Origin: Brachionus manjavacas
Taxonomy: Eukaryota > Rotifera > Eurotatoria > Ploima > Brachionidae
Direction: 5' to 3'
DNA: 64,000 bases
Assembly (NCBI GenBank): GCA_019054805.1
Contig: JAHQIY010000014.1
Coordinates: forward strand, 558,001 to 622,000
Made by a program: the position numbers and the translations under genes. Positions within the stretch are counted from its first letter, which is position 1. Each line of letters begins with the position of its first letter. This document shows, piece by piece, positions 30,292 to 56,335 of this stretch. The notes under the pieces are model-generated. The model searched no databases. It saw nothing but the letters and a program-made list of their open reading frames with translations, and had not been told where the DNA came from.

Positions 30292-30607
30292 TTAATAAAA
30301 GCCTGGGTATGATCCAAATGATGGTGAAGCTGAAAAAGATTGACCAGAAGTAAGTGATTGAGCTCCGTATAATGAAAGAGGGCTCAATTGGGCAGCACTG
30401 AATTGTGGAGATGACAAAACAGCAGTTTGATCAAAATTGTATGTTGAACCCAAACCGGAGTATTGTTGAGCTGGAGCAAATGATGGCTGAGGTGCAGCAA
30501 ATGATGCTTTACCGAATGAAGCTGATGGGTAGCCTTTTTTTAAATTAAAATAATTAATCTTATTTGTCTAAATAAATTTTAATCTAAAAAATATTACCGT
30601 TGAACAT
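30292..30607 (-). CDS. Small Ser/Ala/Gln-rich protein, family copy A
   Basis: Exon 1 is 30598-30607 (ATG plus two codons and one base: MFN|). A 64-nt GT-AG intron (30534-30597) follows, then exon 2 at 30292-30533 ending TAA. The product is 83 aa: MFNGYPSASFGKASFAAPQP, then FAPAQQYSGLGSTYNFDQTA and a C-terminus SFSASPSFGSYPGFY. No signal peptide, membrane segment or known domain is visible; the composition (S, A, P, Q, G, F, Y) suggests a disordered or structural protein. The first exon is too short to find by ORF length. A TATAAATA lies at 30676-30669, 62-69 bp upstream of the ATG. It is divergent from copy B across 497 bp. The family has six copies here; I do not recognise it. Confidence 0.7.
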
Positions 30608-31104
30608 TTTTATTTTCTTTAGTATTTAATTTTTTGAAATAATGATTTTTATATTGATTTTAAACTTTTATTTATATTTAAAAAAAATGAAACTACTCAT
30701 GCTTGAATATACTTTTTTTCTTAGCACATATAGCTTTTTTATAACATCAATAGTCATATGACAAAATGGCTTGAATGGTTTTAATAATTTAGCATTTTTT
30801 AATTTTTTATACACCCACGACTCACGAACTAAAACCAGAACTCCATTAGGAACACATTCAATTTCTGACTGATCACTCGTTAATTCATATTATCTTCAAA
30901 GATAAATAAAATAAAAAAACTTTAGTTCATTGAAAGAGAAAAATCAGGGAATTCAAAGAGAACATTCTATTAAATGGTTATTCAAGTGTATAAATAAAAA
31001 AACTCATTCGGGCTTTAAATAATTATTTCTATATATAGTAGAAACTATATCATAAGAAAACTAAATAATTGTACAACAAAATTAGTTATTAAAACAAAAT
31101 AAAA
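30608..31104. promoter_or_regulatory. 497-bp divergent promoter between copies A and B
   Basis: The spacer between the two ATGs is 497 bp, exactly the length of the E-F spacer (55524-56020). Reverse-complementing E-F gives recognisable similarity in the same order: CATGCTTGAA, AACTAAAACCAGAACT, AGGAAC.CATTCAATT, CATTCTAT. TATAAATA lies at 30669-30676 (minus, for A) and TATATATA at 31030-31037 (plus, for B), each about 62-75 bp from its ATG. Confidence 0.65.
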
Positions 31105-31420
31105 ATGTTTAACGGTAATATTTTTTAGATTTAAATTTATTTAGACAAATAAGATTAATTATTTTAATTTAAAAAAAGTCTACCCATCAGCTTCATTCGG
31201 CCAAGCATCATTTGCTGCACCTCAGCCATCATTTGCTCCAGCTCAACAATACTCCGGTTTGGGTTCAGCTTACAATTTTGATCAAACTGCTGCTTTGTCA
31301 TCTCCACAATTCAGTGCTGCCCAATTGAGCCCTCTTTCATTATACGGAGCTCAATCACTTACTTCTGGTCAATCTTTTTCAGCTTCACCATCATTTGGAT
31401 CATATCCAGGACTTTATTAG
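31105..31420 (+). CDS. Small Ser/Ala/Gln-rich protein, family copy B
   Basis: Exon 1 is 31105-31114, the intron 31115-31178 (GTAATA...AAAAAG), and exon 2 31179-31420 ending TAG. The product is 83 aa, beginning MFNVYPSASFGQASF, with the family middle (AAPQPSFAPAQQYSGLG) and C-terminus SYPGLY. The frame is intact, and exon boundaries and intron length match copy A. Differences from A are mostly single substitutions (G4V, K11Q, T34A). It points away from copy A. The partner gene SCLY begins 1.4 kb downstream on the same strand; there is no sign of shared function. Confidence 0.7.
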
Positions 31421-32813
31421 AAGCATTTTTTAAAAATAATTTCTTTTATCAAATAAATTAGTTTTTCTTTCTTTTTTTCTTTAATTGATTACCAAAAATA
31501 ATTTTCCTTCATTAAGCTTTACTATAGATTAGTTCAAACATTTAAATGTTTTTTTAAAGGAAATTTTTTTTGATAATTGAATTTCATGTCAAATTGCTCT
31601 GAAGCTATTTTCTTACCTTTCGATTAAATTTTATCTTTTATTTCCTTCCTAATTTCTTTAAAATTTCATTTAATTTTCTTTCCTAATTTCTTTTTCATTT
31701 TTTTTTAAAACTTGACTATAAAATCACATCATTCATTTTTCATCGACAAAGGATCATAAATTCTAGATCTAAATTTATGTCTTTATTTTTTTTAAAGTTT
31801 TGTCTCAAAAATAAATTCTCCTGATAGATAAATTTAATTTTTTAATATGCCTATTCATCTTTTCTTTACATGTCAATATTAATCTATAGCTCATTTTGTT
31901 ATTAAAATTGTTCTCGTTCTAGTTAAATTGGCTCATAATTTAGCATATTTATTTATATAATTTGTTTGCAAATATATTTTTTTCTTTATTCTTGGTTATT
32001 CCTAAATTCTTTAATTTTTTTTATTTATTGAAAAATATTAAACTCGATCCTATCAAATGGTAGTTTTTACTAATAAATTCAAACTAAAGATATATATCTG
32101 ACATCCCTGAATATTTTCGAATTTTTCCCTATGCTCAATTGCAGGATCTGGCTCTGGCACGTTTTTTCAATTAATATTGGTACATTCTACATTTCTTTAT
32201 CTAAAAATGTTTTTTTTTATCTTTCTTTCCAATTCATAAAAAATATATTTTAAAAAACGATTAAATTTTTGTTTACACAATTAACTTTATTTATTTGAAA
32301 CCTCAAAATTTCTATTGATTATTGGCTTTTTTATCTTGATTTAATCTGCCTGATTTGTTTAAATTAATAAAAATATTTTTATTTGTGTTGCTAAAGCTTC
32401 TGCTTCTACCAGATAAAAAGAACTCGCATAATTAAACAAAATAGCGCTCTATAAACCATTATCTTTTTTTATCCACTTGTGTTAAACTAAATCTTTTATT
32501 TAAATCTGAATTATACTCTAAAGATTCGAAAATTAATCTTTTGATTTTAATTTTTTTATTTGATTTAACAAAAATTTTCAAATCGATAGATCAAAGCAAA
32601 AATGAATAAATAAAAAGTCAAGAAAAAAAATTGGAGTGAATGATTTGAATTTTTAAAATCCGCATAATGAATTGGAATAATTATAATTTAACAAAAAAAC
32701 TCAACCATAAATTTAAAATATTTTCTCGAAAAAATATCAAACTCATTTTTCCTAAGTATAATCTAATTTAAATGTGGAAACCCAATTTAAACAAAATATT
32801 TTAATTCAAAAAA
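31421..32813. other. Intergenic region upstream of SCLY
   Basis: AT-rich sequence with pyrimidine-rich runs (31600-31960) and no exon I can support. The proximal 200-300 bp presumably hold the SCLY promoter, but no core element stands out. Confidence 0.5.
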
Positions 32814-34253
32814 ATGTGCGAAAATTTGAATGAAAAGTAAATTTAGATTTAAAAATTAATCCTAAGTCATACCCAAAGTCCTTCCTTAGAAAGGTGTATC
32901 TTGACTACAACGCAACAACTCCACTAGATGCCGAAGTCATTCAATGCATCACCGAATCTCTGTGCAAAGGTTGGTCAAATCCGTCAAGTCAGTACAATGC
33001 TGGCAAAGATGCCAAAGCTGAAATTAACAAGTCAAGGGGTCTGATCGCTCAAATGATAAACGCAAACTTTCCAACTGATATTGTTTTCCTATCTGGTGGA
33101 ACTGAGGTAAAAATAAATATTTGAAAAAATAAAAAATTTTTAATTCAATTAAGGCAAATAATGTGGTTTTTAATTCTGTTTATATTCATTATCAAAATTT
33201 AAAAAAAAGATTTAATGATTTGGATCCATTACCACATTTCATTATATCAATAGTGGAGCATGATTCAGTGAAATTAGTCGCTGAGCACTATGAGAAAATT
33301 GGCCTTGGAGGTAGGAAATAATAAATTTAGAAGATAAAAAATGTATCTTTAAAAAAAATTTAAGAGGTGTCTGTTGCTAATGTTGATTCAACTGGTGCTG
33401 TTAGAGTCAAAGATATTTTAAAAATGATCCGACCAAATACTATATTGGTATCCATAATGTTGGCAAACAACGAAACTGGAGTAATTCAGCCAGTCGAAGA
33501 ATTATCAGCAGAAATAAAAAAAATAAATGGAAGGAGAGTTCCAATTTTTGTTCATACTGACGCGGCACAAGCCATCGGGAAGATAAAAGTAGATGCAGAA
33601 AAGCTGATGGTTGACTATTTGACAATTGTTGGCCATAAATTTTATGGACCAAAGATAGGTGCTTTATATGCGAGAAATTGTTTGGGTAATGATTCGGAAA
33701 AATCACCCCTTTTCCATCTTTTCCAAGGCGCTGGACAAGAGGGTGGATTGAGGCCTGGTACAGAAAATACACCGATGATTGTAGGCCTTGGCAAAGCATG
33801 TGAATTGGTCACAAAGAATTTGGATAAATATTCAAAGCATATGCAAGAAATAAGGGATTACTTGGAAAAAAAATTAATTGTAAATTTTAAATTTTTAAAT
33901 GCTTTTGTTTTATTACTTTTTTAAAGGAAGTTTTTGGTGTTGAAAATTTAAGATTTAATGGAAAATCAGATAGCACAGAAAGACTGCCGAACACGTGCAA
34001 TGTGTCTTTTATTTCAAGTCCAAAATTTAAAGGATTTTTGATACTTAAATATTGTGATTATTTGGAAGCCAGCACAGGATCGTGTTGTCATTCCGGAGAA
34101 TTCAGAGCATCCAAGATATTACTGAAAATGAATATTGATTTAAATGATGCAGCAAATGCACTTCGATTGAGTGTAGGAAGAGATACTACAAAGCAAGATA
34201 TAGAATTGGTAGTTCAGGATATTCAGAATTCTTTGAGGAAGATTTTAAATTAA
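32814..34253 (+). CDS. SCLY: Selenocysteine lyase
   Basis: PLP-dependent enzyme splitting L-selenocysteine into alanine and elemental selenium, for selenium recycling in the cytosol. Five exons: 32814-32836, 32890-33106, 33154-33310, 33365-33879, 33927-34253, with GT-AG introns of 53, 47, 54 and 47 nt and all phases consistent. The product is 412 aa (human about 445). It is a class V aminotransferase-fold protein: [11 protein letters not shown] at 11-21, SGGTE|ANN at 76-83, VEHDS with His116, [16 protein letters not shown] with Asp198, [16 protein letters not shown] with the PLP lysine Lys224, RPGTENTP with Arg262, LPNTCN, GSCCHS with the catalytic cysteine (Cys358 by alignment) and ALRLSVGR near the end. 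The VGHKFYGP and [10 protein letters not shown] motifs fit SCLY better than the mitochondrial desulfurase NFS1. The 23-nt first exon was chosen because its splice restores KKVYLDYN in frame. Confidence 0.93.
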
Positions 34254-34855
34254 TATTTTGTGATTTTCAAAAAATAAAAATTATTGTTGCATAATTTTAA
34301 TTATTTTTCAAATTATTGAAATTTAGAAATGTATTTTAAAAGTTGAATAAAAAAACCAATTAATCAATTAAAAAATTTTTAGCCAAATAATATCCGAAAA
34401 GAAAGCTGTTTAAAAAAAATATTATTTTTTGACATTTAATTTACACGAAGTACACCTAATTTGTTCAAAGTTCGTAACGATTTTAAATTAGCATTTACTA
34501 ATGGGATGATATTTCCTAAAATAGATCTTGTTCAAGAGAAAGAATAAATATTCCTTAATCCTAAGTTTTATCAGCTAGTTATTTAAAAAAATGAAAGTAT
34601 GAACATTTGTAATTTTTTTTTGATTTTTCAAAAGTTTGTCTTAATTTATTATTATTTGAAAATTTTAAATAATCTTAAACTTAAATCTGGGGTCAAGGAA
34701 GTCGCGAAAAAAAAATTAAATCTTTCAATTTTATTATTCTTAAATGAATAAAACATAAGCGCTAACTTTATTTGATTTAAAATTTCTTAATTGATTTTAA
34801 TTAATTTTCAAGTAGTCTGCTAGATTATGGATTAATAAGTTAGTTTTTTTTTAAT
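34254..34855. other. SCLY 3' flank, no gene seen
   Basis: Two AATAAA-like hexamers within the first 100 bases could serve as the SCLY polyadenylation signal. The rest is AT-rich and without features. Confidence 0.4.
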
Positions 34856-34861
34856 TGTTAG

Positions 34862-35442
34862 GCAGTATTTATCAGGGGAAAAGCAGATATTGCCGCTAAG
34901 GATGGACTCTAAAGGAGACGTGTTTACTCATTATGATGTGTGCAACAAGGAGGAGTAAAAGTTAAAAGAGAGTAGTTATTTTGACAACCTTTTAAAGAGC
35001 TTGTCTGTGGGAGGTCATGTTTTAAAATGAAAAAAAAAAGATTTTTTAATTATTAATTTATTTATTTAATTTTAGAAAATTTTAATTTTGAACAAATGGT
35101 CGATTATTACTGGATTTATTATCCATTTCTACATTATCACTATGGGTATATTTCGGATGCCGTTCTGTTTAAAAAAGCAATTGGAAGCACCCAAAGGAAC
35201 AAAAAAGAGGGCTTAAAGACAATTCTTCAAAATTACAGCTATAATCCCTCCATTTAAGTTAAAATATGGAGTGGAATGGTAAAAAAAAAATAACAATTAC
35301 CAAATAGATTAAAAAAAATTAAATTTTATGTTAAATAATAAAAATAATTTAGAATTATTAATGTTGGAGAAAAGACGGGCAAATCTGATGTATCCAATTT
35401 AATAGCTCTAAATTATGCAACAATTATGATTTCTTAATAATA
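34862..35442 (+). other. Three protein-like segments, unrecognised (possible exons or a decayed gene)
   Basis: Three blocks have protein-like composition, each preceded by a plausible acceptor. The first (about 34862-34959) encodes QYLSGEKQILPLRMDSKGDV up to CNKEE and a stop. The second (about 35078-35260) encodes FEQMVDYYWIYYPFLHYHYG, then SDAVLFKKAIGSTQRNKKEG, and a stop. The third (about 35352-35437) encodes INVGEKTGKSDVSNLIALN and a stop. Donor sites that would remove the stops and keep frame are not found: phases mismatch and one +1 shift is needed near 35240. It is either a degenerate gene or a chance run. I do not recognise the family. Confidence 0.25.
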
Positions 35443-35611
35443 ACACTGGTGGAAAACCCATCAGTGCCAACAAAATATTTTAAAAAAAAAATTTTATTTT
35501 TTTTTAAGATGACACATGCTCAACTGACTGCACCGTTTGAGCTCGACGGTGGCATGCGCACAAAAAGATCAGCGCATGGTCAGACACTTGTATTTTCCTT
35601 TCTTTTTATAG

Positions 35612-36660: not shown

Positions 36661-36996
36661 TTAATAAAGGCCTGGATATGATCCAAATGATGGTGAAGCG
36701 GAAAACGATTGACCAGAAGTAAGTGATTGAGCTCCGTATAAAGAAAGAGGGCTGCAATGGGCAGCAATGAATTGTGGAGATGACAAAACAGCAGTTTGAT
36801 CAAAATTGTAAGCTGAATCCAAACCGGAGTATTGTTGAGCTGGAGCAAATGATGGCTGAGGGGCAGCAAATGATGGCTGAGGGGCAGCAAATGATGCCTG
36901 ACCGAATGAAGCTGATGGGTAGCCTTTTTTTAAATAAAATAATTAAGTTTACTTGCCTAAATAAATTTTAAACCAAAAAATATAACTGTTGAACAT
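36661..36996 (-). CDS. Small Ser/Ala/Gln-rich protein, family copy C (7-aa duplication)
   Basis: Exon 1 is 36987-36996, the intron 36924-36986, and exon 2 36661-36923 ending TAA. The product is 90 aa, seven more than the other copies, because a 21-bp unit encoding SFAAPQP is tandemly duplicated. Several residues diverge (GLDSAYN, QFIAAHCSPL), making C the most divergent copy. TATAAAT at 37067-37061 lies about 65-71 bp upstream of the ATG, the same spacing as in the paired copies. No divergent partner is found on the other side, so C is a half-pair. The frame is intact. Confidence 0.65.
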
Positions 36997-37600: not shown

Positions 37601-37603
37601 AAA

Positions 37604-37954: not shown

Positions 37955-38094
37955 AATTAAAATACAAGAACGAACTTTCAAAGGTTCGAACTTTTATTTG
38001 ATACATGGTCACCAGTTAGGATCTTGAATGAAAGATATTTTGAAACCAATCTCCTAAAAATGTATTCTTTTGCTTATTTGTCTATTTATTTGTT

Positions 38095-39765: not shown

Positions 39766-39769
39766 TAAA

Positions 39770-40302: not shown

Positions 40303-41345
40303 TTATTTTATCAAAACATATTTCTTGTTTTGATAAAATAAATTATCAAAATTTTTATCACTGTTTAAACCTGTTAAGTTCCCTAAACGCCATCCACCAC
40401 TTCCACCCAAATGCCATGATAAACGATAGGGACTTGATGTGTCATGTGTATCTGCTGAACCTTGATTTATTGTTGAGTCTGGAGAAAATCAAAAGCTATA
40501 ACTATCAGTCATGTACCAATAAGCTGAACCTACAAAAACTGGGCTGTTAATAGCTGTTGGTGTCAAAACTGTATGACAATTAGCGCATGATACCAACAGG
40601 AAACAATCTGAATTTGCCAATCCACCTGCTGCACACAGCACTGAATTGCTGCTACATTGACTTTTTATATTTTCAAGTTCTGTCATCGAAGTGGAATGGG
40701 AATAATTTTGATTGTAAACCAAGCTGAAGCCAGATCCAGTTAGATAATTCAATGAATAATTATTTGTTAAACATGAATATGATTCTAAATAATAAAATTA
40801 TTATTATTATCCATTGTTAAATAATTTAATACTAAAATTTAAATAATGAAACAGCATCAAATTTAAAGTTATTTTATCTTTTGGAAAAAAAAAATACTTG
40901 CTAAAAAATCTAGAATTAAAAAAAAAACTTAAAAAACAAAAAAAAATGAATTTGTTTAAAAGTGAAACTTGAGTTTATATTTTTCAAAATAAGCATTAAA
41001 TTTTTAACGAATTTTGCCTAATTTAATCTAATTAATAATATTTAAAAAACTTGGAAAAATTTATTGTTTTTATTGTTTTATACTGTTTTGTCTATTGAAC
41101 TTCACATAGCTTAATTAACTTTAAAAATTGTTTATAAAGCTAATATTAATTTGCGATTGAATTTGGAAATTTTAATGAAATTCTAAATTATTTTTGAATG
41201 TTACCATATGAAATTTTTTGGGCTATGATAAGAAAGAGATTTGTAAATCACACATTGATTGTTATTGAAATTGGCAAATTTACAAAGACCATTTTTAAAA
41301 CAATGAGCCATGCATTCAATTCGGGTTCTCAATTTTTTGTTTACA
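40303..41345 (-). pseudogene. Cys-containing, probably extracellular protein gene broken by one TGA
   Basis: The terminal exon (40303-40784) follows an acceptor at 40786-40785 (TTATTTAG|AATCAT). It encodes SYSCLTNNYSLNYLTGSGFS, then NIKSQCSSNSVLCAAGG, CFLLVSCANCHTVLTPTA, FVGSAYWYMTDSYSF, a TGA at 40491-40489, and then continues in the same frame as FSPDSTINQGSADTHDT, YRLSWHLGGSGGWRLGN and a stop at 40303. The stop probably replaces Gly (GGA to TGA), restoring S-F-G-F-S-P. Upstream, about 41345-41205, a second block encodes RIECMAHCFKNGLCKFANF and NNNQCVIYKSLS, a cysteine spacing reminiscent of PAN/apple-type domains. The phase does not join directly, so a middle exon or further decay is likely. 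I cannot name the family. Confidence 0.5.
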
Positions 41346-41499
41346 ATCATTTTGGTGACAGAATCAAATTTTTTTTGTTCAATTTGGTCATTTATTTTAA
41401 AAAATACCGTTTCTTTTTGATAAATTTAAAAAAAAATATTTTTATTATTAAAAATTTAAAGAAAAATTACCTATTCTATTCATCAAAATAAAATTAAGT

Positions 41500-41935: not shown

Positions 41936-41936
41936 A

Positions 41937-43275
41937 TTTATTTATTTATTTGTTAACTGTACCGAGCTAAAGCTCCTTCAGAATAAAAATAAAAAATAAA
42001 AATTTAAGTTAAGTAAAATTAAAAATTAAAAAAAGTTAAGTAAAATAAAATCAAAAAATAAGGAAAAAAAAAAAAATAAAAATAAAATTTGCAAGAGTTA
42101 ATAGATATAAAAAAGATATATGATAAAGAGAGTTTTAGGTCATTCAGGTTTACATAGTTTAGGTTTCAGGAAAAAAAGAGGAAATTGTAAGGTAGCAATT
42201 ACACAATGGAGTCGGGTATTCGATATTTCTTGATTCGAAACCCGCTTTGTATTCATCCACCAGTCTGACAACCAATGGAATGGAATTACTCAGTCCTGTC
42301 CCAACATATCTCTCACTCAACTCAAGAAGTCGATTCGAGACTGTCGGTAATTTAAGTTTATTAAAAGCCTCCTGATGCATGATGCTGGAGGGAGTATCAT
42401 ATTTTAATCTGAGGATAGATCTGACTGCTGTATTCTGAATTGCTTGTAACTTTTTGATATTATTTTCTGAAAATGAATTCAAGCAAGGAAACGAATAGTC
42501 TAGAATTGAACCGACTAAAGATTTATATAAATTTCCTAGTGTGTTTTGATTGAGACCCCATTTTTTGTTTGACAATATCTTAATAATATTTAGCCTTTTG
42601 TTGCAGCGTTCTTTAATTTCGTCTACTAGTGTATTAAAGTTTAACTTAGAATCAAATTTAATACCAAGAAACTTGATTTCTTTTTGGCTCATTATTCTGT
42701 ATCCATAAATTTTTAAGTTTAGATTATCACTATCTTTTTTGTACCTAGAGAAGATTCATTATTCATTATTTGTTTTGTTTCTTTTAGGGATATCATTAAT
42801 ATAAATGCTAAATAAAAGAGGACTAATAACCGAGCCTTGAGGAACACCTGCAGTTATTTGATATTCGTCGCTCAAGTTGTAATTCACATTCACCCTAAAT
42901 GTCCTTGAGTCTAAGAAGGATCTAATCCAGTTAATTAAGTATTGTGGTGGATTTATTTTTATTAATTTATAAATTAAACCTTCGTGCCAAACCCTATCAA
43001 AGGCTTTAGAAATATCAAAAAAAAGGCCACAAACTCTTTTTTTTCTGATTGATAAGGTATGCATTTATGTGAAGCAGAAATGATTTTTTTTGTAATTTTG
43101 TTATTCAGCTCATCTATTGAAAGTGTTTTTTCACTAAGATAATCTCTATCTTCATTTAAGGTGTCTCTAAAAAGTTGCCAGTTTGCTTTTTTATAGTTGA
43201 ATTTCCTAATTGTAGATTTGCTTTTAATTAAGTAGTCAATGGAAATAGATGCTTCAATTGGAAAATGCTTAAAAT
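41937..43275 (-). pseudogene. Jockey-type LINE copy, inverted and internally deleted
   Basis: The family 3' terminus lies at 41940-41985 (GTACCGAGCTAAAGCTCCTTC on the plus strand). Minus-strand coding includes VSQKEIKFLGIKFDSKLNF to the C-terminus (42692-42159) and KKRVCGLFFDISKAFDRVWH through GVPQGSVISPLLFSIYINDI (43040-42759). The FADD block is lost in a deletion near 42755. A second deletion near 43050 fuses the upstream segment ending CIPYQS directly to KKRVCGL. It closely matches the plus-strand copies at 43.3 and 49.4 kb and faces the first head to head, forming an inverted repeat around 43300. Confidence 0.85.
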
Positions 43276-43328
43276 AAGCTTTAAATAAGTTTAAAAAATC
43301 ATTAATTCAAACAATCAGATACTAAAGC
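43276..43328 (+). promoter_or_regulatory. Orphan small-gene promoter fragment
   Basis: This block (AAGTTTAAAAAATCATTAAT through CAGATACTAAAG) equals the sequence immediately upstream of the ATG of copy F (55965-56010). Here it is cut off just before the gene and fused to LINE sequence on both sides. It marks a rearrangement breakpoint inside the promoter of a lost small-gene copy. Confidence 0.7.
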
Positions 43329-43332
43329 TACT

Positions 43333-45483
43333 TCTGCTTCACATAAATGCATACCTTATCATTCAGAGAAAATATACAAAACGAGTCTACCACCAGATAT
43401 AGTTATGCTGATCAAAGAACGTAGAAAAATTAGAAGAAACTTTCAAAGATCTCGTTGTCCGTTACTTAAGAAAAGATTTAATCACTTAACCTCAGAGTTA
43501 AAAATCTCATTAAGAAAATTCTTGAATCAAAATTGGTTTGATTTCATTCAGAAAATGGGGAAAAATCCACTTTCAAGCAGGCCTTTTTGGAAAAAAATAA
43601 ACAAATTTAGAACACAGAAAGGATCAAAATTGATTCCAAATTTGATCTCAAATAACAAGGAATTAAAAACTGATAATGAAAAAGGAAAATGCTTCGGAGA
43701 TATATTATCTTCAACATTTAGTCCTCACTCTGATTTAATAGATACTGAAAAAGATAATGAAATAATTAGCTTTAATTTTGAATACCTCAAAAATTACAAT
43801 CAGTGTAATTTCAATGATCCTATCTGCCCAAACGAACTTATTCTGACTTTAAAAAGACTGAAGACTGAAGCGGCCTCAGGACCTGACCAAATACATAATC
43901 TAATGCTTAAAAATTTACCAAGAAATTCCTTAATAGAAATCTCAAAACTATTTAACTTATCTCTGTGACATGGTATTATTCCTAAATCATGGAAAACTGC
44001 GAACATAACTATGATTCAAAAAAATGCATCTTCTCCACAAGATCCTTCAAACTATAGACCAATCAGTATAACAAGTTGCCTAGGAAAGTTACTTGAGCGT
44101 ATAATCTACACAAGACTCTACAATTTTTTAGAAAAAAATTTATTACTTATCCAGGAACAATCAGGATTTAGGAAACATCGGAGAACTTCCGATAATCTTT
44201 ACTTTTTAATTCAAAAAATTGTGGAATCATTTAATAGAAAAAAAAGAGTTTGTGGCCTTTTTTTTGATATTTCTAAAGCCTTTGATAGGGTTTGGCACGA
44301 AGGTTTAATTTATAAATTAATAAAAATAAATCCACCACAATACTTAATTAACTGGATTAGATCCTTCTTAGACTCAAGGACATTTAGGGTGAATGTGAAT
44401 TACAACTTGAGCGACGAATATCAAATAACTGCAGGTGTTCCTCAAGGCTCGGTTATTAGTCCTCTTTTATTTAGCATTTATATTAATGATATCCCTAAAA
44501 GAAACAAAACAAATAATGAATACTTTCTGCTTTTCGCAGATGATCTAGTTACATTCTTCATTTATAACAAGAAAGGGAACCTAGAAAATAAGATTAATAA
44601 ATACACCAACGAACTAGAACAATGGCTTATTTAATGGAAAATGAAGATATCAGTTGAAAAGTCATGTTCAGTAGTCTTTTCTAGGTACAAAAAAGAGGGT
44701 GATAATCTAAACTTAAAAATCTATGGAAACAGAATAGTGAGCCAAAAAGAAATCAAGTTTCTTGGTATTAAATTTGATTCTAAGTTAAACTTTAATACAC
44801 TAGTAGACGAAATTAAAGAACGCTGCAACAAAAGGCTAAATATTATTAAGATATTGTCAAACAAAAAATGGGGTCTCAATCAAAACACACTAGGAAATTT
44901 ATATAAATCTTTAGTCGGATCGATTTTAGACTATTCTTTTCCTTGCTTAAATTCATTTTCAGAAAATAATATCAAAAAACTACAAGCAATTCAGAATACA
45001 GCAGTCAGATCTATCCTCAGATTAAAATATGATACTCCCTCCAGCATCATGCATCAGGAGGCTTTTAATAAACTTAAATTACTAACAGTCTCGAATCGTC
45101 TTTTTGAGTTGAGCGAGAAATATGTTGGGACAGGACTGAGTCATTCTACTCCATTGGTTGAAAGACTGGTTAAAGAATACAAAGAAGGTTTCGAATCAAG
45201 ATATATTGAATAGCCAACTCCATTGTGTAATTGCTACCTTAATATTTCTTCTTTTTTTCCTGAAACTTGAACTATTTAAACATGTGCCACATGAAACAAT
45301 CTTTTCCAATTTATGTCTTTTCAACTTTAATTTTTTTTAGCTTATTTACTCTATTTTGATTCTTTTTTTTTTATCTAATTTTATTTACTTTAATTTTATT
45401 TTTATTTTATTTTTTTTATTTTATTTTTAATTTATTCTGAAGGAGCTTTAGCTCGGTACATAAAACAAATAAATAAATAAATA
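43333..45483 (+). pseudogene. Jockey-type LINE, duplication unit 1
   Basis: One frame runs from SASHKCIPY at 43333 to the C-terminus at 45213. It encodes GPDQIHNLMLKN (RT0), NYRPISITSCLGKLLERI (RT1), QSGFRKHRRTSDNL, FFDISKAFDRVW (motif A), GVPQGSVISPLLFSIYINDI (motif B), LLFADDLVTFF (motif C) and KFLGIKFDSK (thumb-side motif). TGA at 43966-43968 and TAA at 44632-44634 interrupt it with no frameshift. The endonuclease is missing (5' truncation). The 3' end is GAAGGAGCTTTAGCTCGGTA plus a TAAA-rich tail to about 45483. Unit 2 carries the same two stops, so they predate the duplication. Confidence 0.9.
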
Positions 45484-45526
45484 ATATAAAGCAAAAAAAT
45501 AAATACTTATCGATAAGAAATAAAAA

Positions 45527-47629
45527 ATGTCTAGTACTGAATCAGTAATTCCCAATTTCAATGAAGAGGACACAATGCTTGATATAGACCAAGAAGATGT
45601 AGAACCACTAAAAAAACGTGGGAAAGGAATTTTATATCAAGAGGTAGCAATCATTAAGTTGACTGAATTTATTCAGCAAAAAGATGCTACAATGAACAAG
45701 CAAGGATTCATTAATAAATTTAGCCACGATACCAATTTATGGAAATACCAATACAAGCGCAAACGAATTGACACTGTTTGCTATTATTTCCTCTGTTCGC
45801 CACCATTGTCGAGCTGCAGCACAATGGCTTATTATCACCTTACTTCTGATGACGAAGTATGTTTATTCATCAGTGATTATAAACAAGAGCACAAGGACAA
45901 AACTGAAAGAGGTATACCAATAGAAATAAAAGAGCAGATCAAGCGCTACTTCGAAATGAAAATAACAACTCCAAAAGCCATACTGAGAGCACTCGATAAT
46001 GATGGACTACAACAACCACAAATAAAAACTTTAAGTAACTATCTGGCTATTATACGTAAAGATAACTACGGTCCGGCACACATAAACGTTCTGGATCTTG
46101 AACTATGGCACCAAAATCGGAAGGAGGTTCCAGACGATTACGACAAACCATTTTGTCCAAGTTTCGAGAAAGCTGTAGATAACGATCAGCTCATGTTTTT
46201 CCGAATTTTTTTCACCACCAAGCGACTGATTAGCAATGCGGACAAGAAAAAGCATTTAACAGTAGATGCTACCTACAAACTCATTTGGCAAGGTTTCCCA
46301 GTCTTGATGATTGGTACTACTGATCGCCAAAAGCACTTTCATCCGTTTGGTATTTGTATTTCAACCAACGAAACAGGAGATGACTTCAGATTCCTTTTTG
46401 AATCACTCTAAAAAGTTGTTTTCGATGTGATGCAACTGCAGTATTCGCCACAGATCGTAATAGCAGATGGTGCCGATGCAATCACCAATGGATTTCAAGA
46501 AGCATTCGCTGATATTTTTGAAAAGAGAGTTATGTGCTTTGCTCATGTTATACGTAAAGTTGACGCGCAACTGAAAAGTTTCACCACTGAAGCCCAGAAA
46601 GCCATAAAGTATTCAATTAGACAGGATATCATGCGGCTTCAATTGTGCGAATCTGAAGAAATTTTTGATGCCGTATTAAAACTTTTCATTAACAAGTGGC
46701 GTTCGTATAAATCTGAGCTTATAGACAATTTCCTTGACTATTTTTGCTGCGAGTGGACTACAAGGTATTATTAATATATATATATTTTAATATTTTCATC
46801 TTTTATTTTATAATTTTTTTAAGATTAAAAGGTTGGTTTGAAGGCTATGCTCCCGGTGTGCCATCCACCAATAATGCTTTAGAATCCTGGAATCTAATCA
46901 TCAAGCTAGAGTCAACTATGAGGCAACGTCACAATTTAAGTTCATTCCTTACAATCTTAGATAATGACATCATTGGGCGTTGGTCAAGAGATAGGCATCC
47001 CGAAAACGTGAATCGTGCAATTTTTTACACTGAATTTAATTGCGATCTACAATTGTATACTGCCGCTTTTCAATGGACTAGCAATATAAAAACTGACTGT
47101 ATTATCAAAATTTCTTCCTCTAATGGTCGTATTTTTTATAGTCATCAAGATCTCAATCTAAAGCTGACAAAAGAAACAGTTGACGACTATATTTTAACAA
47201 AACAAAATTTATCCGGTGATCATTTAATGACTACTCTCAATTTTGCCAGATCAATGAGACCATTCTATGTTCCGATGATTGGAAACAAAGCAAATGCAAT
47301 TGTAGAGAATTTGCTAAACACTACATCTGCATTCATGTTCTTGGCCTTGCATACCGTTACAAGCTTTGCATTATCCCAGAATAAGCTAAAACAATTTCAA
47401 TCGGTCAAAAACGCAAAAGAGGCAGACCAAAAAACAAAAAGCAGCTTTGTTTTACCAAAATGATTGTGATTTGAGCAGTTCAGAAAATGAAGATATTCAA
47501 GAGCCTCCTAGCGATTCAGTCATTGAGAAAGAATCTGTTACTGAAGCTACAGTCGAAGCTACAGTGGATTTACCAAGAAAACGAGGAAGACCAAAGAAAT
47601 CAACAACTCAGGGAAAAAAACAAAAATAA
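45527..47629 (+). pseudogene. MULE transposase gene, duplication unit 1
   Basis: Exon 1 is 45527-46764, a 59-nt GT-AG intron 46765-46823, then exon 2 from 46824. The N-terminus is acidic, then KKRGKGILYQEVAIIKL and a FLYWCH-like Trp/Tyr/Cys region (WKYQYKRKRIDTVCYYFLCS). The transposase core has LTVDATYKLIWQGFPVLMIG (first Asp), HFHPFGICIS, IVIADGADAITNGF (second acid) and MCFAHVIRKVD (CxxH), then GWFEGYAPGVPSTNNALESWN (N-N-x-x-E block). The end is LPRKRGRPKKSTTQ, an AT-hook that binds the minor groove. Defects: TAA at 46409-46411 in frame (FESL*KVVFDV) and a frame break in the A-run near 47430, leaving the AT-hook tail (47447-47629) in the +1 frame. No TIR or target duplication was recognised. 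Confidence 0.85.
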
Positions 47630-49012
47630 ATTAATCGTTTATATTTTTTTATATTTTGTCATTTAAATAAATATTTTCGTCACTAAAATTAGTTTTTTTG
47701 TCTACAAATAAGGTTTTATTTTGTCAGTGAAAAATTATAAAAAAGTCATCTCAAAATATAAATTTGTCAGTCGTTTAGTTTTTTTGTCAGAATAATTAGT
47801 TTTTTATAGTCAGCTAAAACAAATAAAATTAGTCACCACTTTTAGTTATTTTTGTCATCTTAAAAAAATTTAATTTGTCACCCCGAAAAAATATAAGCCA
47901 TTAAAAATTAAGTTAGTTTTTAATTTAAAAAAAGTTATTTTTTATCAATTTTTTGAATACTAAATTTTTAAACTTTATTAAACATGATTTGTTTAATCTT
48001 TAATTGGGAAGAAAATTATATGAGTTTTTTTCTGAAGTAAAATAAAAGGCATTTAATTATAACTTGGGTTTATTTTATGCAAAAAAAAACTAAAATACTG
48101 AATTCGGAACAAAATTATTATTCATTACTTTTTTTTAATATATAATACTAATTATCTAAATAGAACAAAAAAAATCAAATTTTAAGGACAAAAAAATCCA
48201 ATTCTCTATCGAGGCATTTTTTAGCATCCTCCAAGGAGCTAAAACTACAGAAAGGAAAATAACTTTTACCTTTTCCTCTAGTTTTTCCTTTAGTATTAGC
48301 TTCAAAGGCCTGGTCTTGAGATATGTTACTAGAAATTTCTTCAATTACAGGCCTTTTTTTTTTAATTCCCGAGTAACTTTAAAGATTTATTTATTTATTC
48401 GATTAACTATATTGAACTAGAGATAAGACTACATTGGTTTATATTAAAGTAAAATCAAAAGTTTAAATTTAAAAAAAACAAGAAAGACAAAAAAATTTCA
48501 AAGTGGCTATATTTTTGAACATTATTGGATTAATTAACAAAAATTTTAATTTTTTTGATTGTATAAGAATTTCTTTTCAATCAATTATTTATTAATAAAT
48601 TAAAATAGTGCTCAATTTAAATGTAATTGACATTAATTACAAAAATTAACTTAAATGTTTTTATTTTGTTCCTAATTCAGTATTTTAGTTTTTAAATTGC
48701 ATATTATTGTTATTTAAAAATATTATCCGCGAAAATAAAATCTAAATCAATATTTTTATTATTGACATTTAAAATTCATTTCTAAGTTGAACATTTTTAA
48801 GAGAACTCAACAAGTAATTAAAAACGATTATTTTAAAGAAAGAAGTTTTAGGTTTAACCTGTAATTTAAGAAAAAATAATTGTGAAAGACTCAATTATTT
48901 ATTTATTTATGATCAAAAAAATAAGAAAAAATTAAAATTAGTAATTTAAAAAGTATAAAATATCAAAAATCTTATTTTTAATTATCTTTGCAGTCCAAAT
49001 CTAAAGATGCTT
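47630..49012. other. MULE 3' flank and spacer of unit 1
   Basis: Starts with the repeated TTTGTCA-motif block (47685-47890), then AT-rich spacer. A 62-codon minus ORF at 48156-48344 is preserved in both units but has low-complexity Lys/Leu composition; I do not call it a gene. Confidence 0.5.
47685..47890. repeat. Array of degenerate TTTGTCA/TTAGTCA motifs
   Basis: About ten spaced copies of TTTGTCA, TTAGTCA or TAGTCAG occur within 200 bp, directly after the MULE stop codon, commonly separated by 15-30 bp of AT-rich DNA. The same array follows the second MULE (53884-54090). It looks like a subterminal binding-site array of the transposon's right end. Confidence 0.6.
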
Positions 49013-49327
49013 TTAATAAAGGCCTGGATATGATCCAAATGATGGTGAAGCTGAAAACGATTGACCAGAAGTAAGCGATTGAGCTCCGTATAATGAAAGA
49101 GGGCTCAATTGGGCAGCACTGAATTGTGGAGACGACAAAGCAGCAGTTTGATCAAAATTGTATGTTGAACCCAAACCGGAGTATTGTTGAGCTGGAGCAA
49201 ATGATGGCTGAGGGGCAGCAAATGATGCTTGGCCGAATAAAGCTGATGGGTAGCCTTTTTTTTATTAAAAAAATTAATTTTACTTGCCTAAATAAATTTT
49301 AAACTAAAAAATAGTACTGTTGAACAT
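49013..49327 (-). CDS. Small Ser/Ala/Gln-rich protein, family copy D
   Basis: Exon 1 is 49318-49327, the intron 49255-49317, and exon 2 49013-49254 ending TAA. The 83-aa product is MFNSYPSALFGQASF...SYPGLY, intact, identical or nearly so to copies E and F. Upstream, sequence matches the family promoter only to about 49385, where it joins LINE DNA. The TATAAATA present at this position in the other copies is gone, so D may be silent. It is the last gene of duplication unit 1. Confidence 0.65.
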
Positions 49328-49389
49328 TTTTATTTTCTTTAGTATCTGATTGTTTGAATTAATGATTTTTTAAACTTATTTTAAGCTTA

Positions 49390-51680
49390 TTTTAAGCATT
49401 TTCCAATTGAAGCATCAATTTCCATTGACTACTTAATTAAAAGCAAATCTACAATTAGGAAATTCAACTATAAAAAAGCAAACTGGCAACTTTTTAGAGA
49501 CACCTTAAATGAAGATAGAGATTACCTTAGTGAAAAAACACTTTCAATAGATGAGCTGAATAACAAAATTACAAAAAAAATCATTTCTGCTTCACATAAA
49601 TGCATACCTTATCAATCAGAGAAAATATACAAAACGAGTCTAAGATCTCGTTGTCCGTTACTTAAGAAAAGATTTAATCACTTAACCTCAGAGTTAAAAA
49701 TCTCATTAAGAAAATTCTTGAATCAAAATTGGTTTGATTTCATTCAGAAAATGGGGAAAAATCCACTTTCAAGCAGGCCTTTTGGGAAAAAAATAAACAA
49801 ATTTAGAACACAGAAAGGATCAAAATTGATTCCAAATTTGATCTCAAATAACAAGGAATTAAAAACTGATAATGAAAAAGGAAAATGCTTCGGAGATATA
49901 TTATCTTCAACATTTAGTCCTCACTCTGATTTAATAGATACTGAAAAAGATAATGAAATAATTAGCTTTAATTTTGAATACCTCAAAAATTACAATCAGT
50001 GTAATTTCAATGATCCTATCTGCCCAAACGAACTTATTCTGACTTTAAAAAGACTGAAGACTGAAGCGGCCTCAGGACCTGACCAAATACATAATCTAAT
50101 GCTTAAAAATTTACCAAGAAATTCCTTAATAGAAATCTCAAAACTATTTAACTTATCTCTGTGACATGGTATTATTCCTAAATCATGGAAAACTGCGAAC
50201 ATAACTATGATTCAAAAAAATGCATCTTCTCCACAAGATCCTTCAAACTATAGACCAATCAGTATAACAAGTTGCCTAGGAAAGTTACTTGAGCGTATAA
50301 TCTACACAAGACTCTACAATTTTTTAGAAAAAAATTTATTACTTATCCAGGAACAATCAGGATTTAGGAAACATCGGAGAACTTCCGATAATCTTTACTT
50401 TTTAATTCAAAAAATTGTGGAATCATTTAATAGAAAAAAAAGAGTTTGTGGCCTTTTTTTTGATATTTCTAAAGCCTTTGATAGGGTTTGGCACGAAGGT
50501 TTAATTTATAAATTAATAAAAATAAATCCACCACAATACTTAATTAACTGGATTAGATCCTTCTTAGACTCAAGGACATTTAGGGTGAATGTGAATTACA
50601 ACTTGAGCGACGAATATCAAATAACTGCAGGTGTTCCTCAAGGCTCGGTTATTAGTCCTCTTTTATTTAGCATTTATATTAATGACATCCCAAAAAGAAA
50701 CAAAACAAATAATGAATACTTTCTGCTTTTCGCAGATGATCTAGTTACATTCTTCATTTATAACAAGAAAGGGAACCTAGAAAATAAGATTAATAAATAC
50801 ACCAACGAACTAGAACAATGGCTTATTTAATGGAAAATGAAGATATCAGTTGAAAAGTCATGTTCAGTAGTCTTTTCTAGGTACAAAAAAGAGGGTGATA
50901 ATCTAAACTTAAAAATCTATGGAAACAGAATAGTGAGCCAAAAAGAAATCAAGTTTCTTGGTATTAAATTTGATTCTAAGTTAAACTTTAATACACTAGT
51001 AGACGAAATTAAAGAACGCTGCAACAAAAGGCTAAATATTATTAAGATATTGTCAAACAAAAAATGGGGTCTCAATCAAAACACACTAGGAAATTTATAT
51101 AAATCTTTAGTCGGATCGATTTTAGACTATTCTTTTCCTTGCTTAAATTCATTTTCAGAAAATAATATCAAAAAACTACAAGCAATTCAGAATACAGCAG
51201 TAAGATCTATCCTCAGATTAAAATATGATACTCCCTCCAACATCGTGCATCAGGAGGCTTTTAATAAACTAAAATTACTAACAGTCTCGAATCGTCTTTT
51301 TGAGTTGAGCGAGAAATATGTTGGGACAGGACTGAGTCATTCTACTCCATTGGTTGAAAGACTGGTGAAAGAATACAAAGAAGGTTTCGAATCAAGATAT
51401 ATTGAATAGCCAACTCCATTGTGTAATTGCTACCTTAATATTTCTTCTTTTTTCCTGAAACTTGAACTATTTAAACATGTGCCACATGAAACAATCTTTT
51501 CCAATTTATGTCTTTTCAACTTTAATTTTTTTTAGCTTATTTACTCTATTTTGATTCTTTTTTTTTTTTTATCTAATTTTATTTACTTTAATTTTATTTT
51601 AATTTTATTTTTTTTATTTTATTTTTAATTTATTCTGAAGGAGCTTTAGCTCGGTACATAAAACAAATAAATAAATAAAT
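49390..51680 (+). pseudogene. Jockey-type LINE, duplication unit 2
   Basis: Coding in one frame from KHFPIEASISIDYLI (49394) through FNYKKANWQLFRDTL and on to 51409. It keeps about 230 bp more of the 5' side than unit 1. RT motifs are as in unit 1, with the same two in-frame stops (TGA at 50162-50164, TAA at 50828-50830). Relative to unit 1 it lacks 57 nt (19 codons, in frame) near 49646. The 3' terminus is at 51640-51680. At its 5' end it abuts the copy D promoter. Confidence 0.9.
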
Positions 51681-51724
51681 AATATAAAGCAAAAAAATAA
51701 ATACTTATCGATAAGAAATAAAAA

Positions 51725-53828
51725 ATGTCTAGTACTGAATCAGTAATTCCCAATTTCAATGAAGAGGACACAATGCTTGATATAGACCAAGAAGATGTAG
51801 AACCACTAAAAAAACGTGGGAAAGGAATTTTATATCAAGAGGTAGCAATCATTAAGTTGACTGAATTTATTCAGCAAAAAGATGCTACAATGAACAAGCA
51901 AGGATTCATTAATAAATTTAGCCACGATACCAATTTATGGAAATACCAATACAAGCGCAAACGAATTGACACTGTTTGCTATTATTTCCTCTGTTCGCCA
52001 CCATTGTCGAGCTGCAGCACAATGGCTTATTATCACCTTACTTCTGATGACGAAGTATGTTTATTCATCAGTGATTATAAACAAGAGCACAAGGACAAAA
52101 CTGAAAGAGGTATACCAATAGAAATAAAAGAGCAGATCAAGCGCTACTTCGAAATGAAAATAACAACTCCAAAAGCCATACTGAGAGCACTCGATAATGA
52201 TGGACTACAACAACCACAAATAAAAACTTTAAGTAACTATCTGGCTATTATACGTAAAGATAACTACGGTCCGGCACACATAAACGTTCTGGATCTTGAA
52301 CTATGGCACCAAAATCGGAAGGAGGTTCCAGACGATTACGACAAACCATTTTGTCCAAGTTTCGAGAAAGCTGTAGATAACGATCAGCTCATGTTTTTCC
52401 GAATTTTTTTCACCACCAAGCGACTGATTAGCAATGCGGACAAGAAAAAGCATTTAACAGTAGATGCTACCTACAAACTCATTTGGCAAGGTTTCCCAGT
52501 CTTGATGATTGGTACTACTGATCGCCAAAAGCACTTTCATCCGTTTGGTATTTGTATTTCAACCAACGAAACAGGAGATGACTTCAGATTCCTTTTTGAA
52601 TCACTCTAAAAAGTTGTTTTCGATGTGATGCAACTGCAGTATTCGCCACAGATCGTAATAGCAGATGGTGCCGATGCAATCACCAATGGATTTCAAGAAG
52701 CATTCGCTGATATTTTTGAAAAGAGAGTTATGTGCTTTGCTCATGTTATACGTAAAGTTGACGCGCAACTGAAAAGTTTCACCACTGAAGCCCAGAAAGC
52801 CATAAAGTATTCAATTAGACAGGATATCATGCGGCTTCAATTGTGCGAATCTGAAGAAATTTTTGATGCCGTATTAAAACTTTTCATTAACAAGTGGCGT
52901 TCGTATAAATCTTAGCTTATAGACAATTTCCTTGACTATTTTTGCTGCGAGTGGACTACAAGGTATTATTAATATATATATATTTTAATATTTTCATCTT
53001 TTATTTTATAATTTTTTTAAGATTAAAAGGTTGGTTTGAAGGCTATGCTCCCGGTGTGCCATCCACCAATAATGCTTTAGAATCCTGGAATCTAATCATC
53101 AAGCTAGAGTCAACTATGAGGCAACGTCACAATTTAAGTTCATTCCTTACAATCTTAGATAATGACATCATTGGGCGTTGGTCAAGAGATAGGCATCCCG
53201 AAAACGTGAATCGTGCAATTTTTTACACTGAATTTAATTGCGATCTACAATTGTATACTGCCGCTTTTCAATGGACTAGCAATATAAAAACTGACTGTAT
53301 TATCAAAATTTCTTCCTCTAATGGTCGTATTTTTTATAGTCATCAAGATCTCAATCTAAAGCTGACAAAAGAAACAGTTGACGACTATATTTTAACAAAA
53401 CAAAATTTATCCGGTGATCATTTAATGACTACTCTCAATTTTGCCAGATCAATGAGACCATTCTATGTTCCGATGATTGGAAACAAAGCAAATGCAATTG
53501 TAGAGAATTTGCTAAACACTACATCTGCATTCATGTTCTTGGCCTTGCATACCGTTACAAGCTTTGCATTATCCCAGAATAAGCTAAAACAATTTCAATC
53601 GGTCAAAAACGCAAAAGAGGCAGACCAAAAAAACAAAAAGCAGCTTTGTTTTACCAAAATGATTGTGATTTGAGCAGTTCAGAAAATGAAGAAATTCAAG
53701 AGCCTCCTAGCGATTCAGTCATTGAGAAAGAATCTGTTACTGAAGCTACAGTCGAAGCTACAGTGGATTTACCAAGAAAACGAGGAAGACCAAAGAAATC
53801 AACAACTCAGGGAAAAAAACAAAAATAA
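51725..53828 (+). pseudogene. MULE transposase gene, duplication unit 2
   Basis: Same architecture as the unit 1 gene: exon 1 51725-52962, a 59-nt intron 52963-53021, then exon 2. It shares the TAA at 52607-52609 and adds a second nonsense codon, TAG at 52913-52915 (GAG in unit 1, a G-to-T change). The A-run near 53628 has one more A than unit 1, placing the AT-hook tail (53646-53828) in yet another frame. The shared stop shows that inactivation preceded duplication; the unit 2 copy has decayed further. Confidence 0.85.
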
Positions 53829-55208
53829 ATTAATCGTTTATATTTTTTTATATTTTGTCATTTAAATAAATATTTTCGTCACTAAAATTAGTTTTTTTTG
53901 TCTACAAATAAGGTTTTATTTTGTCAGTGAAAAATTATAAAAAAGTCATCTCAAAATATAAATTTGTCAGTCGTTTAGTTTTTTTGTCAGAATAATTAGT
54001 TTTTTATAGTCAGCTAAAACAAATAAAATTAGTCACCACTTTTAGTTATTTTTGTCATCTTAAAAAATTTAATTTGTCACCCCGAAAAAATATAAGCCAT
54101 TAAAAATTAAGTTAGTTTTTAATTTAAAAAAAGTTATTTTTTATCAATTTTTTGAATACTAAATTTTTAAACTTTATTAAACATGATTTGTTTAATCTTT
54201 AATTGGGAAGAAAATTATATGAGTTTTTTTCTGAAGTAAAATAAAAGGCATTTAATTATAACTTGGGTTTATTTTATGCAAAAAAAAACTAAAATACTGA
54301 ATTCGGAACAAAATTATTATTCATTACTTTTTTTTAATATATAATACTAATTATCTAAATAGAACAAAAAAAATCAAATTTTAAGGACAAAAAAATCCAA
54401 TTCTCTATCGAGGCATTTTTTAGCATCCTCCAAGGAGCTAAAACTACAGAAAGGAAAATAACTTTTACCTTTTCCTCTAGTTTTTCCTTTAGTATTAGCT
54501 TCAAAGGCCTGGTCTTGAGATATGTTACTAGAAATTTCTTCAATTACAGGCCTTTTTTTTAATTCCCGAGTAACTTTAAAGATTTATTTATTTATTCGAT
54601 TAACTATATTGAACTAGAGATAAGACTACATTGGTTTATATTAAAGTAAAATCAAATGTTTAAATTTAAAAAAAACAAGAAAGACAAAAAAATTTCAAAG
54701 TGGCTATATTTTTGAACATTATTGGATTAATTAACAAAAATTTTAATTTTTTTGATTGTATAAGAATTTCTTTTCAATCAATTATTTATTAATAAATTAA
54801 AATAGTGATCAATTTAAATGTAATTGACATTAATTACAAAAATTAACTTAAATGTTTTTATTTTGTTCCTAATTCAGTATTTTAGTTTTTAAATTGCATA
54901 TTATTGTTATTTAAAAATATTATCCGCGAAAATAAAATCTAAATCAATATTTTTATTATTGACATTTAAAATTCATTTCTAAGTTGAACATTTTTAAGAG
55001 AACTCAACAAGTAATTAAAAACGATTATTTTAAAGAAAGAAGTTTTAGGTTTAACCTGTAATTTAAGAAAAATAATTGTGAAAGACTCAATTATTTATTT
55101 ATTTATGATCAAAAAAATAAGAAAAAATTAAAATTAGTAATTTAAAAAGTATAAAATATCAAAAATCTTATTTTTAATTATCTTTGCAGTCCAAATCTAA
55201 AGATGCTT
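53829..55208. other. MULE 3' flank and spacer of unit 2
   Basis: Duplicate of 47630-49012, with the TTTGTCA-motif array at about 53884-54090. No gene is supported. Confidence 0.5.
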
Positions 55209-55523
55209 TTAATAAAGGCCTGGATATGATCCAAATGATGGTGAAGCTGAAAACGATTGACCAGAAGTAAGCGATTGAGCTCCGTATAATGAAAGAGGGC
55301 TCAATTGGGCAGCACTGAATTGTGGAGACGACAAAGCAGCAGTTTGATCAAAATTGTATGTTGAACCCAAACCGGAGTATTGTTGAGCTGGAGCAAATGA
55401 TGGCTGAGGGGCAGCAAATGATGCTTGGCCGAATAAAGCTGATGGGTAGCCTTTTTTTTATTAAAAAAATTAATTTTACTTGCCTAAATAAATTTTAAAC
55501 TAAAAAATAGTACTGTTGAACAT
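55209..55523 (-). CDS. Small Ser/Ala/Gln-rich protein, family copy E
   Basis: Exon 1 is 55514-55523, the intron 55451-55513, and exon 2 55209-55450 ending TAA. The 83-aa product begins MFNSYPSALFGQASFAAPQP and has the family C-terminus SFGSYPGLY. TATAAATA at 55595-55588 (minus) is 65-72 bp upstream of the ATG. It is divergent from copy F across 497 bp, so E-F repeats the A-B arrangement. It is the terminal gene of duplication unit 2 and has an intact frame. Confidence 0.7.
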
Positions 55524-56020
55524 TTTTATTTTCTTTAGTATCTGATTGTTTGAATTAATGATTTTAATTTTTTGATGAAGTTACTTCTATTTATACTATA
55601 TAATGATACTCATGGAAAGTCTGAAAATATTAAATGAATAAATTAATTTAATCAATAAACTTTTGAATAACCAGTTTATAGAATGCTCTTTTTTCCTTTT
55701 CGATTCCTTAATTTTTTTTTAAATTAATGATGATGATAAAAATTAAAAATGATTAGTATGTAATTGAATGCGTTCCTAAATAAGTTCTGGTTTTAGTTAA
55801 TTGGCGAGTGTATATCAATTTAAAAAAAAATCAAAAATTACTTAAACCATTCATGCAATTTAGTTATTTTGCTATTGATATCGAAAAGAAACTATCTATG
55901 AACATAAAAGAAAAGCTTTTTCAAGCATGGGTAGTTCCAGTTTATCAAAGTATAAATACAAGCTTAAAATAAGTTTAAAAAATCATTAATTCAAACAATC
56001 AGATACTAAAGAAAATAAAA
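55524..56020. promoter_or_regulatory. 497-bp divergent promoter between copies E and F
   Basis: The ends are inverted copies of each other for about 50 bp (TTTTATTTTCTTTAGTATCTG and its complement). TATAAATA occurs at 55588-55595 (minus, for E) and 55951-55958 (plus, for F), both about 65-70 bp from the ATG. The middle is similar to the A-B spacer read on the other strand. Confidence 0.7.
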
Positions 56021-56335
56021 ATGTTCAACAGTACTATTTTTTAGTTTAAAATTTATTTAGGCAAGTAAAATTAATTTTTTTAATAAAAAAAAGGCTACCC
56101 ATCAGCTTTATTCGGCCAAGCATCATTTGCTGCCCCTCAGCCATCATTTGCTCCAGCTCAACAATACTCCGGTTTGGGTTCAACATACAATTTTGATCAA
56201 ACTGCTGCTTTGTCGTCTCCACAATTCAGTGCTGCCCAATTGAGCCCTCTTTCATTATACGGAGCTCAATCGCTTACTTCTGGTCAATCGTTTTCAGCTT
56301 CACCATCATTTGGATCATATCCAGGCCTTTATTAA
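56021..56335 (+). CDS. Small Ser/Ala/Gln-rich protein, family copy F
   Basis: Exon 1 is 56021-56030 (ATG, TTC, AAC, A), the intron 56031-56093 (GTACTA...AAAAAAG), and exon 2 56094-56335 ending TAA. The 83-aa product begins MFNSYPSALFGQAS and matches E and D almost exactly; the intron is as well conserved as the exons, pointing to recent gene conversion or duplication. Composition is S, A, P, Q, F, Y, G rich, with YGAQSLTSGQSFSASPSFG near the C-terminus. No domain is recognised. Confidence 0.7.

Follow-up and report, generated by a model that had tools for sequence, protein, structure and literature searches.

What is the sequence that recurs six times, each time with an intact frame, beside broken transposons in this stretch of the Brachionus manjavacas genome, and what could its product do? 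The window, by which we mean the whole 64-kb stretch analysed, covers positions 558001-622000 of contig 14 in an assembly of 114 Mb and 61 contigs. Six copies of a small split gene had been proposed in it from the letters alone, and all six were recovered with the exon structure attributed to them, as follows:

30292..30607, minus strand: copy A; exon 1 coding part 30598-30607, intron 30534-30597 (64 nt), exon 2 30292-30533; 83 aa
31105..31420, plus strand: copy B; exon 1 coding part 31105-31114, intron 31115-31178 (64 nt), exon 2 31179-31420; 83 aa; head-to-head with A
36661..36996, minus strand: copy C; exon 1 coding part 36987-36996, intron 36924-36986 (63 nt), exon 2 36661-36923; 90 aa
49013..49327, minus strand: copy D; exon 1 coding part 49318-49327, intron 49255-49317 (63 nt), exon 2 49013-49254; frame intact
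55209..55523, minus strand: copy E; exon 1 coding part 55514-55523, intron 55451-55513 (63 nt), exon 2 55209-55450; sequence identical to D and F
56021..56335, plus strand: copy F; exon 1 coding part 56021-56030, intron 56031-56093 (63 nt), exon 2 56094-56335; head-to-head with E

The layout is shared by 6/6 window copies: an ATG followed by two codons and one base, a GT..AG intron, 63 nt long in C, D, E and F and 64 nt in A and B, and a second exon of 242 nt that runs to the stop codon, extended to 263 nt in C by one additional 21-nt repeat. The product has 83 aa in A, B, D, E and F and 90 aa in C. As the gene bodies of D, E and F are 100% identical, the six loci hold four distinct sequences and proteins, A, B, C and D(=E=F), so that the count of six is right for loci in the window but neither for distinct sequences nor for the genome, where at least 17 loci were found. 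Exon 2 lacks an in-frame ATG, so translation has to begin upstream of it, in the first exon or at another start. The original prediction of a 10-nt first coding exon stands for the 10 coding bases, which are real; the exon itself is probably longer, because in A, F, G and I (the last two among the further copies described below) a TATA box precedes the ATG by ~70 nt, from which we infer that the exon with the start also carries ~40 nt of 5′ UTR. The 10 nt would then be the coding part of exon 1 alone, probably the tail of a normal 5′-UTR exon.

DNA and protein searches of the window's own genome were combined with a local scan, and their counts, including the 17 loci, are lower bounds. The main cluster, at 588-641 kb of contig 14, comprises nine intact copies (A, B, C, D, E, F, G, H and I) plus J, which has a frameshift near the end and a repeat 7 codons shorter, K, a fragment with two stops, and G′ (637976, plus strand), of which exon 1 and part of the intron are all that is left. 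A second cluster at 502.6-505.7 kb, ~83 kb from A, carries P1-P4, intact in 4/4 cases and encoding 73 aa, whose proteins share 61-65% identity with the main ones in multiple alignments and 52-63% in the genome searches. Among the matches found, those outside 502-641 kb of contig 14 were Q, a dead copy on contig 3 with the ATG missing at the expected start and a match that stops at residue 56, and a chance-level one on contig 9 (E 8.1). No dispersal through the genome was seen in this way, the matches lying within 140 kb of contig 14 bar the dead Q. The statement that all frames are intact is correct within the window, but genome-wide J, K, the remnant G′ and Q depart from it. Moreover, intact frames beside broken transposons, which had been read as a sign of selection or recent spread, turned out to be weak evidence, with D, E and F being very recent copies and dead copies occurring elsewhere.

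The comparison of dN/dS among copies, proposed at the outset, revealed purifying selection between the clusters: NG86 values were 0.29-0.41, not near 1, in 28/28 main-versus-P pairs, and Fisher tests on three such pairs gave p = 9.9e-5, 5.7e-4 and 3.9e-4, bearing in mind that pairwise values are non-independent, that NG86 is a simple method and that the sequence is low-complexity. Differences between G and P1 fall 12/17/28 on the three codon positions over 71 codons. Among the seven distinct main copies dN/dS was 0.10-0.65 in 20/21 pairs and undefined in one, and the variable sites (4/8/14 by codon position over 83 codons) favour the third position. Within the P cluster, the values (0.30-1.23 in 5/6 pairs, one undefined) come from at most 4 nonsynonymous changes and are uninformative, as are the variable sites by codon position (2/2/2 over 73 codons). 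In this line, the coding sequences of intact copies measure 222, 252 or 273 nt, differing in multiples of three, with introns of 59-66 nt, and the GC content of the coding sequence is 42-45% in the 13 intact copies versus 8-14% in introns and 9-27% in flanks; copy J, read as it stands, has 39%. Altogether, the dN/dS values, the codon positions, the lengths of indels and the contrast in GC point the same way, which argues that the gene structure is not a product of chance and that the family is very probably protein-coding.

Codon usage was also compared with a reference taken from the same genome and made of two frames for actin and an EF1a-like one, in which a single stop perhaps marks the end. 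When set against 2000 random synonymous versions, a test that covered G and P1, the codon index of G was reached by 0/2000 under each of two nulls, and that of P1 by 4 and 3/2000; codon choice thus fits actin/EF1a better than random synonymous codings do, which is in keeping with a coding family. The codons TCA, GCT, CCA, CAA and GGT, favoured by the family, are the most used for their amino acids in actin/EF1a as well, whereas the choices of CTT, GGA, CCT and TTT differ from the reference. The CAI of the family is 0.56-0.62, that of four neighbouring host ORFs 0.54-0.56 and that of actin/EF1a, which defined the index, 0.69-0.83. Since the family values overlap or barely top those of host ORFs and stay below actin/EF1a, and since some codons differ, high expression is not shown by this index.

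How did the copies multiply? The duplicated unit is a head-to-head gene pair of ~1.2 kb, with two examples of the intervening spacer in the window:

30608..31104, no strand: A/B spacer, 497 bp from one start codon to the other, taken to be a divergent promoter; 68-78% in alignments with the F/E, G/G′ and I/H spacers
55524..56020, no strand: E/F spacer, 497 bp, taken to be a divergent promoter; 91% identity with the G/G′ spacer

The A/B pair aligns through its spacer with F/E (82%), I/H (86%) and G/G′ (78%) over 0.95-1.2 kb. Spacers measure 480-503 bp in A/B, E/F, H/I and the remnant pair G/G′, 370 bp in P1/P2 and 382 bp in P3/P4; C, D and J stand outside pairs, and the region upstream of C is unlike the pair type. 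Larger events added to this: a 6.2-kb tandem duplication, whose D and E regions are 99.7% alike, and a 5.2-kb inverted duplication of C together with a neighbouring aminotransferase gene (592001-597175 versus the J region at 631489-636847, contig 14 coordinates), with 87-94% identity in the main blocks. Spread in the manner of a transposon was thus not borne out, the unit being a divergent gene pair of ~1.2 kb to which segmental duplications are added, with gene bodies kept alike.

This likeness of the gene bodies does not follow the history of the spacers. By their spacers, AB groups with IH (78%) and FE with GG′ (91%), the other four comparisons giving 68-72%; the gene bodies depart from this grouping, with G-I at 99.4%, where the spacers reach 72%, A-B at 96.2% versus 92.7% for A-I, and E-F at 100%. 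In 60-nt bins, the identity of E and F rises from 43-52% upstream to 91% in the 60 nt next to the ATG and 100% in the gene, and their 3′ flanks give 64, 47 and 35% in successive bins. In H/I, the similar tract begins inside the gene and extends past the stop, staying at 98-100% as far as the comparison reached. Introns are near-identical in A/B, E/F and G/I (at most 1 difference), unlike in H/I. As introns are alike too, selection at the protein level alone is insufficient, and gene conversion, which would explain it, is the simplest explanation for the homogenised gene bodies. In this family layout, one can see directly that homogenisation is limited to the gene bodies. We are highly confident that the family is coding and organised in clusters under concerted evolution.

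The spacers also contain candidate promoter elements, which in the window include:

30669..30707, minus strand: copy A, upstream element TTCAAGCATGAGT with the TATA-like sequence ATATAAATA (contig 14 588669-588707)
55921..55931, plus strand: upstream element TCAAGCATGGG of copy F, with one mismatch

In A, F, G and I, TCAAGCATGAG (with one mismatch in F) precedes the ATG by ~100 nt, and TATAAATA lies downstream of it; the upstream half of B, E and H differs from that of these four. Copy D is a special case, in which similarity to the other copies ends ~60 nt (for F, 61 nt) upstream of the ATG, TATAAATA is absent and the boundary adjoins a frame of a reverse-transcriptase-type element (named by eye, the frame having no Pfam match); D has lost its TATA box and with it its promoter. 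In the second cluster, CAAGC[AT]TGAG precedes the ATG by 109 nt in P1 and by 85 nt in P2, and the P3/P4 spacer contains TTCAAGCAT in both senses, this being the only 9-mer, beyond A/T-rich words, that recurs in 4/4 main spacers and also in a P spacer, that of P3/P4. Genome-wide, TTCAAGCATGAGT plus ATATAAATA occurs in 2 places, all in the family, and TCAAGCWTGAG plus TATAAA in 3, only A, G and I, with 0 for the reversed control in both searches; a looser form of element and TATA gave 55 matches versus 20 in the control, 5/55 of them at family copies. We examined 33 loci, namely 3 exact-element matches and 30 of the 55 looser ones: a downstream frame strongly rich in S/A/P/Q/F/Y/G (0.76-0.84) was present in 3/33, all family, and the others had at most 0.47 or no long frame downstream, so no co-regulated genes hinting at a tissue were found through the upstream element at these loci. 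Similarly, ATGTTYAACRGTAA, the start of the family, occurs in 18 places genome-wide versus 9 in the control, 10 of them family members, and the 8 non-family places stay at control level and do not point to a wider family. A heat-shock reading of the shared promoter was set aside: GAAnnTTC/TTCnnGAA appears once each in 2/4 main spacers and in 0/2 P spacers, against ~0.30-0.36 per 500 bp regionally.

The product, of 73-90 aa, is nearly uncharged, low-complexity and rich in S/A/P/Q/F/Y/G. Copy B, for instance, has 18 S, 13 A, 9 Q, 8 F, 8 P, 7 G, 7 L, 6 Y, one D and not a single K, R or E, and cysteine is absent from the family bar one in copy C. The reading of the family as unrecognised held up in three libraries: Pfam gave no relevant family at E up to 10 (one irrelevant match, E 0.23, in 1/8 members), NCBIfam, a prokaryote-oriented library, no match, and PDB sequences no credible match (best E 0.57). 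Literature searches, by topic rather than by sequence, brought up nothing on the family under rotifer genomes and gene families, the intracytoplasmic lamina, lorica and keratin, keratin-associated and small low-complexity proteins, the Brachionus manjavacas genome, Brachionus single-cell work or inverted-repeat gene pairs. With a first exon that contributes 10 coding bases, a product of 83 aa and no homologue in the libraries searched, it is the kind of family that ORF-based annotation is prone to miss, and on its sequence it is a genuine, unrecognised small gene family that evolves in an ordinary mode. AlphaFold2 on exon 2 returned a pLDDT of 56, a pTM of 0.13 and no secondary structure, from an alignment of only 11 close rows, so the low pLDDT may reflect depth as well as disorder. 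The near-zero charge and the F/Y residues spaced by S, A, P, Q and G suggest weak self-association.

Two known systems offer a comparison. Vertebrate KRTAPs are small low-complexity intracellular structural proteins encoded in multi-copy clusters; unlike them, the family is nearly without cysteine, has an intron and has no Pfam match. Passages of an account of the chorion locus of Bombyx mori describe A/B clusters with a minor exon 1 (~50 nt) and a major exon 2, head-to-head pairs whose common promoter region is short, at 330 nt in the Hc pairs, pseudogenes among the pairs and gene conversion, and secreted proteins with some high-cysteine types (PMC4639761). To the extent that these passages describe the silkmoth genes, a small exon 1 with a large exon 2 and head-to-head pairs with a short shared spacer are found in both, and the family likewise has broken copies and homogenised gene bodies, for which conversion is the cause put forward here; on the other hand, it has no Pfam chorion match and is nearly cysteine-free, and no signal peptide is apparent by eye.

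The explanation that we prefer, held tentatively and at a little under an even chance, is that these are clustered genes for a low-complexity protein, arranged in pairs with shared promoters and homogenised by conversion, whose copy number serves output and whose product self-associates in an intracellular structural or coat role. A divergent promoter common to both genes would drive each pair, one side at least having a TATA box and a TCAAGCATGAG-type element; gene conversion would keep the gene bodies uniform while spacers and 3′ flanks diverge; and the protein, supplied in bulk, would self-associate following the logic of chorion and keratin-associated clusters. The structural role is the less secure part, possible but rather doubtful; if true, it would offer a molecular way into a cell structure specific to the lineage. 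A narrower proposal can be made from the intracytoplasmic lamina that passages of one study describe in a rotifer (PMC13403294): the protein could be a lineage-specific intracellular coat protein, a building block of this lamina made in bulk from divergent pairs kept uniform by conversion, which we regard as very improbable.

A somewhat unlikely alternative accepts a real family and makes the product a secreted protein or a small signalling, gland or seminal peptide, exported by a non-classical route or from an unrecognised upstream exon. Small size, multi-copy clusters and no library match are common in secreted effectors, and the two diverged paralogous clusters would suit such a history; however, inspection by eye of the translated MFN[GSV]YPS start reveals no hydrophobic N-terminus, and the conserved start codon, with an upstream TATA in several copies, leaves scant room for a further coding exon. 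Less probable is that we are looking at recent and mostly non-functional duplicates, with one or a few working genes and the rest as by-products of segmental duplication. The promoterless D, the broken J, K, G′ and Q and the identity of D, E and F all fit, and since gene conversion could preserve the frames of non-functional copies as well, the reading may hold for single copies, but nine main and four P copies have kept their frames and third positions are favoured (4/8/14) among the seven distinct main copies. The last reading, which takes the copies for arms of an element of the foldback or MITE-like kind with inverted repeats that carry an open frame by chance, has in its favour the inverted-repeat layout of A/B (arms of 334 nt, 471 nt between) and E/F (367 nt, 413 nt between) and the transposon remnants nearby, and is hardly credible given that the matches found keep to 502-641 kb of contig 14 bar the dead Q and the chance match on contig 9, that the coding part shows purifying selection and multiple-of-three indels, that the spacer itself is conserved between pairs and that C/J and D/E lie within ordinary segmental duplications. 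That the genes form part of a known transposon's non-coding end is disfavoured in the same way, with matches nearly all on contig 14, the coding part under constraint and a gene pair as the unit. The contig 9 match, of 14 bits (E 8.1), is one of composition at chance level and falls in a 1000-aa open frame that reads by eye like an FG nucleoporin; unlike FG-repeat nucleoporins, the family proteins are of 73-90 aa and without an FG-repeat array.

Among the copies of the two-exon family sits an aminotransferase class-V gene, whose Pfam match (Aminotran_5, E 7e-31) covers window 33364-33924 and which, by eye, reads like a selenocysteine lyase. The features of this part of contig 14 (C14) are as follows:

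Window 33364-34253, aminotransferase class-V gene
C14:634856-636847, inverted partial duplicate of this gene, between frameshifted copy J and intact copy G
Window 43100-55530, a stretch of roughly 6.2 kb duplicated in tandem
Window 40489-40797, C14:630008-630478 and C14:642638-643105, 150-aa segment of a repeated local gene
C14:629344-629613, PAN-domain frame near the latter gene (E 9.6e-6)

A second aminotransferase-like frame, recognised by eye at C14:494907-496028, adjoins the second cluster of copies (P1-P4), probably by coincidence.

Most listed blocks of the tandem duplication are 99-100% identical, and within it we find reverse-transcriptase-like frames (by eye) together with a frame resembling a MULE transposase, whose Pfam match (E 0.00089) falls short of its cut-off.

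The 150-aa segment gave no Pfam match in a scan of one copy; a frame at C14:642001-642222, also near this gene, is judged by eye to be similar to the PAN-domain one.

Elsewhere, contigs C21 and C55 carry bacterial-looking matches to ribosomal S12 and elongation factor, which argues that the assembly probably includes bacterial contigs.
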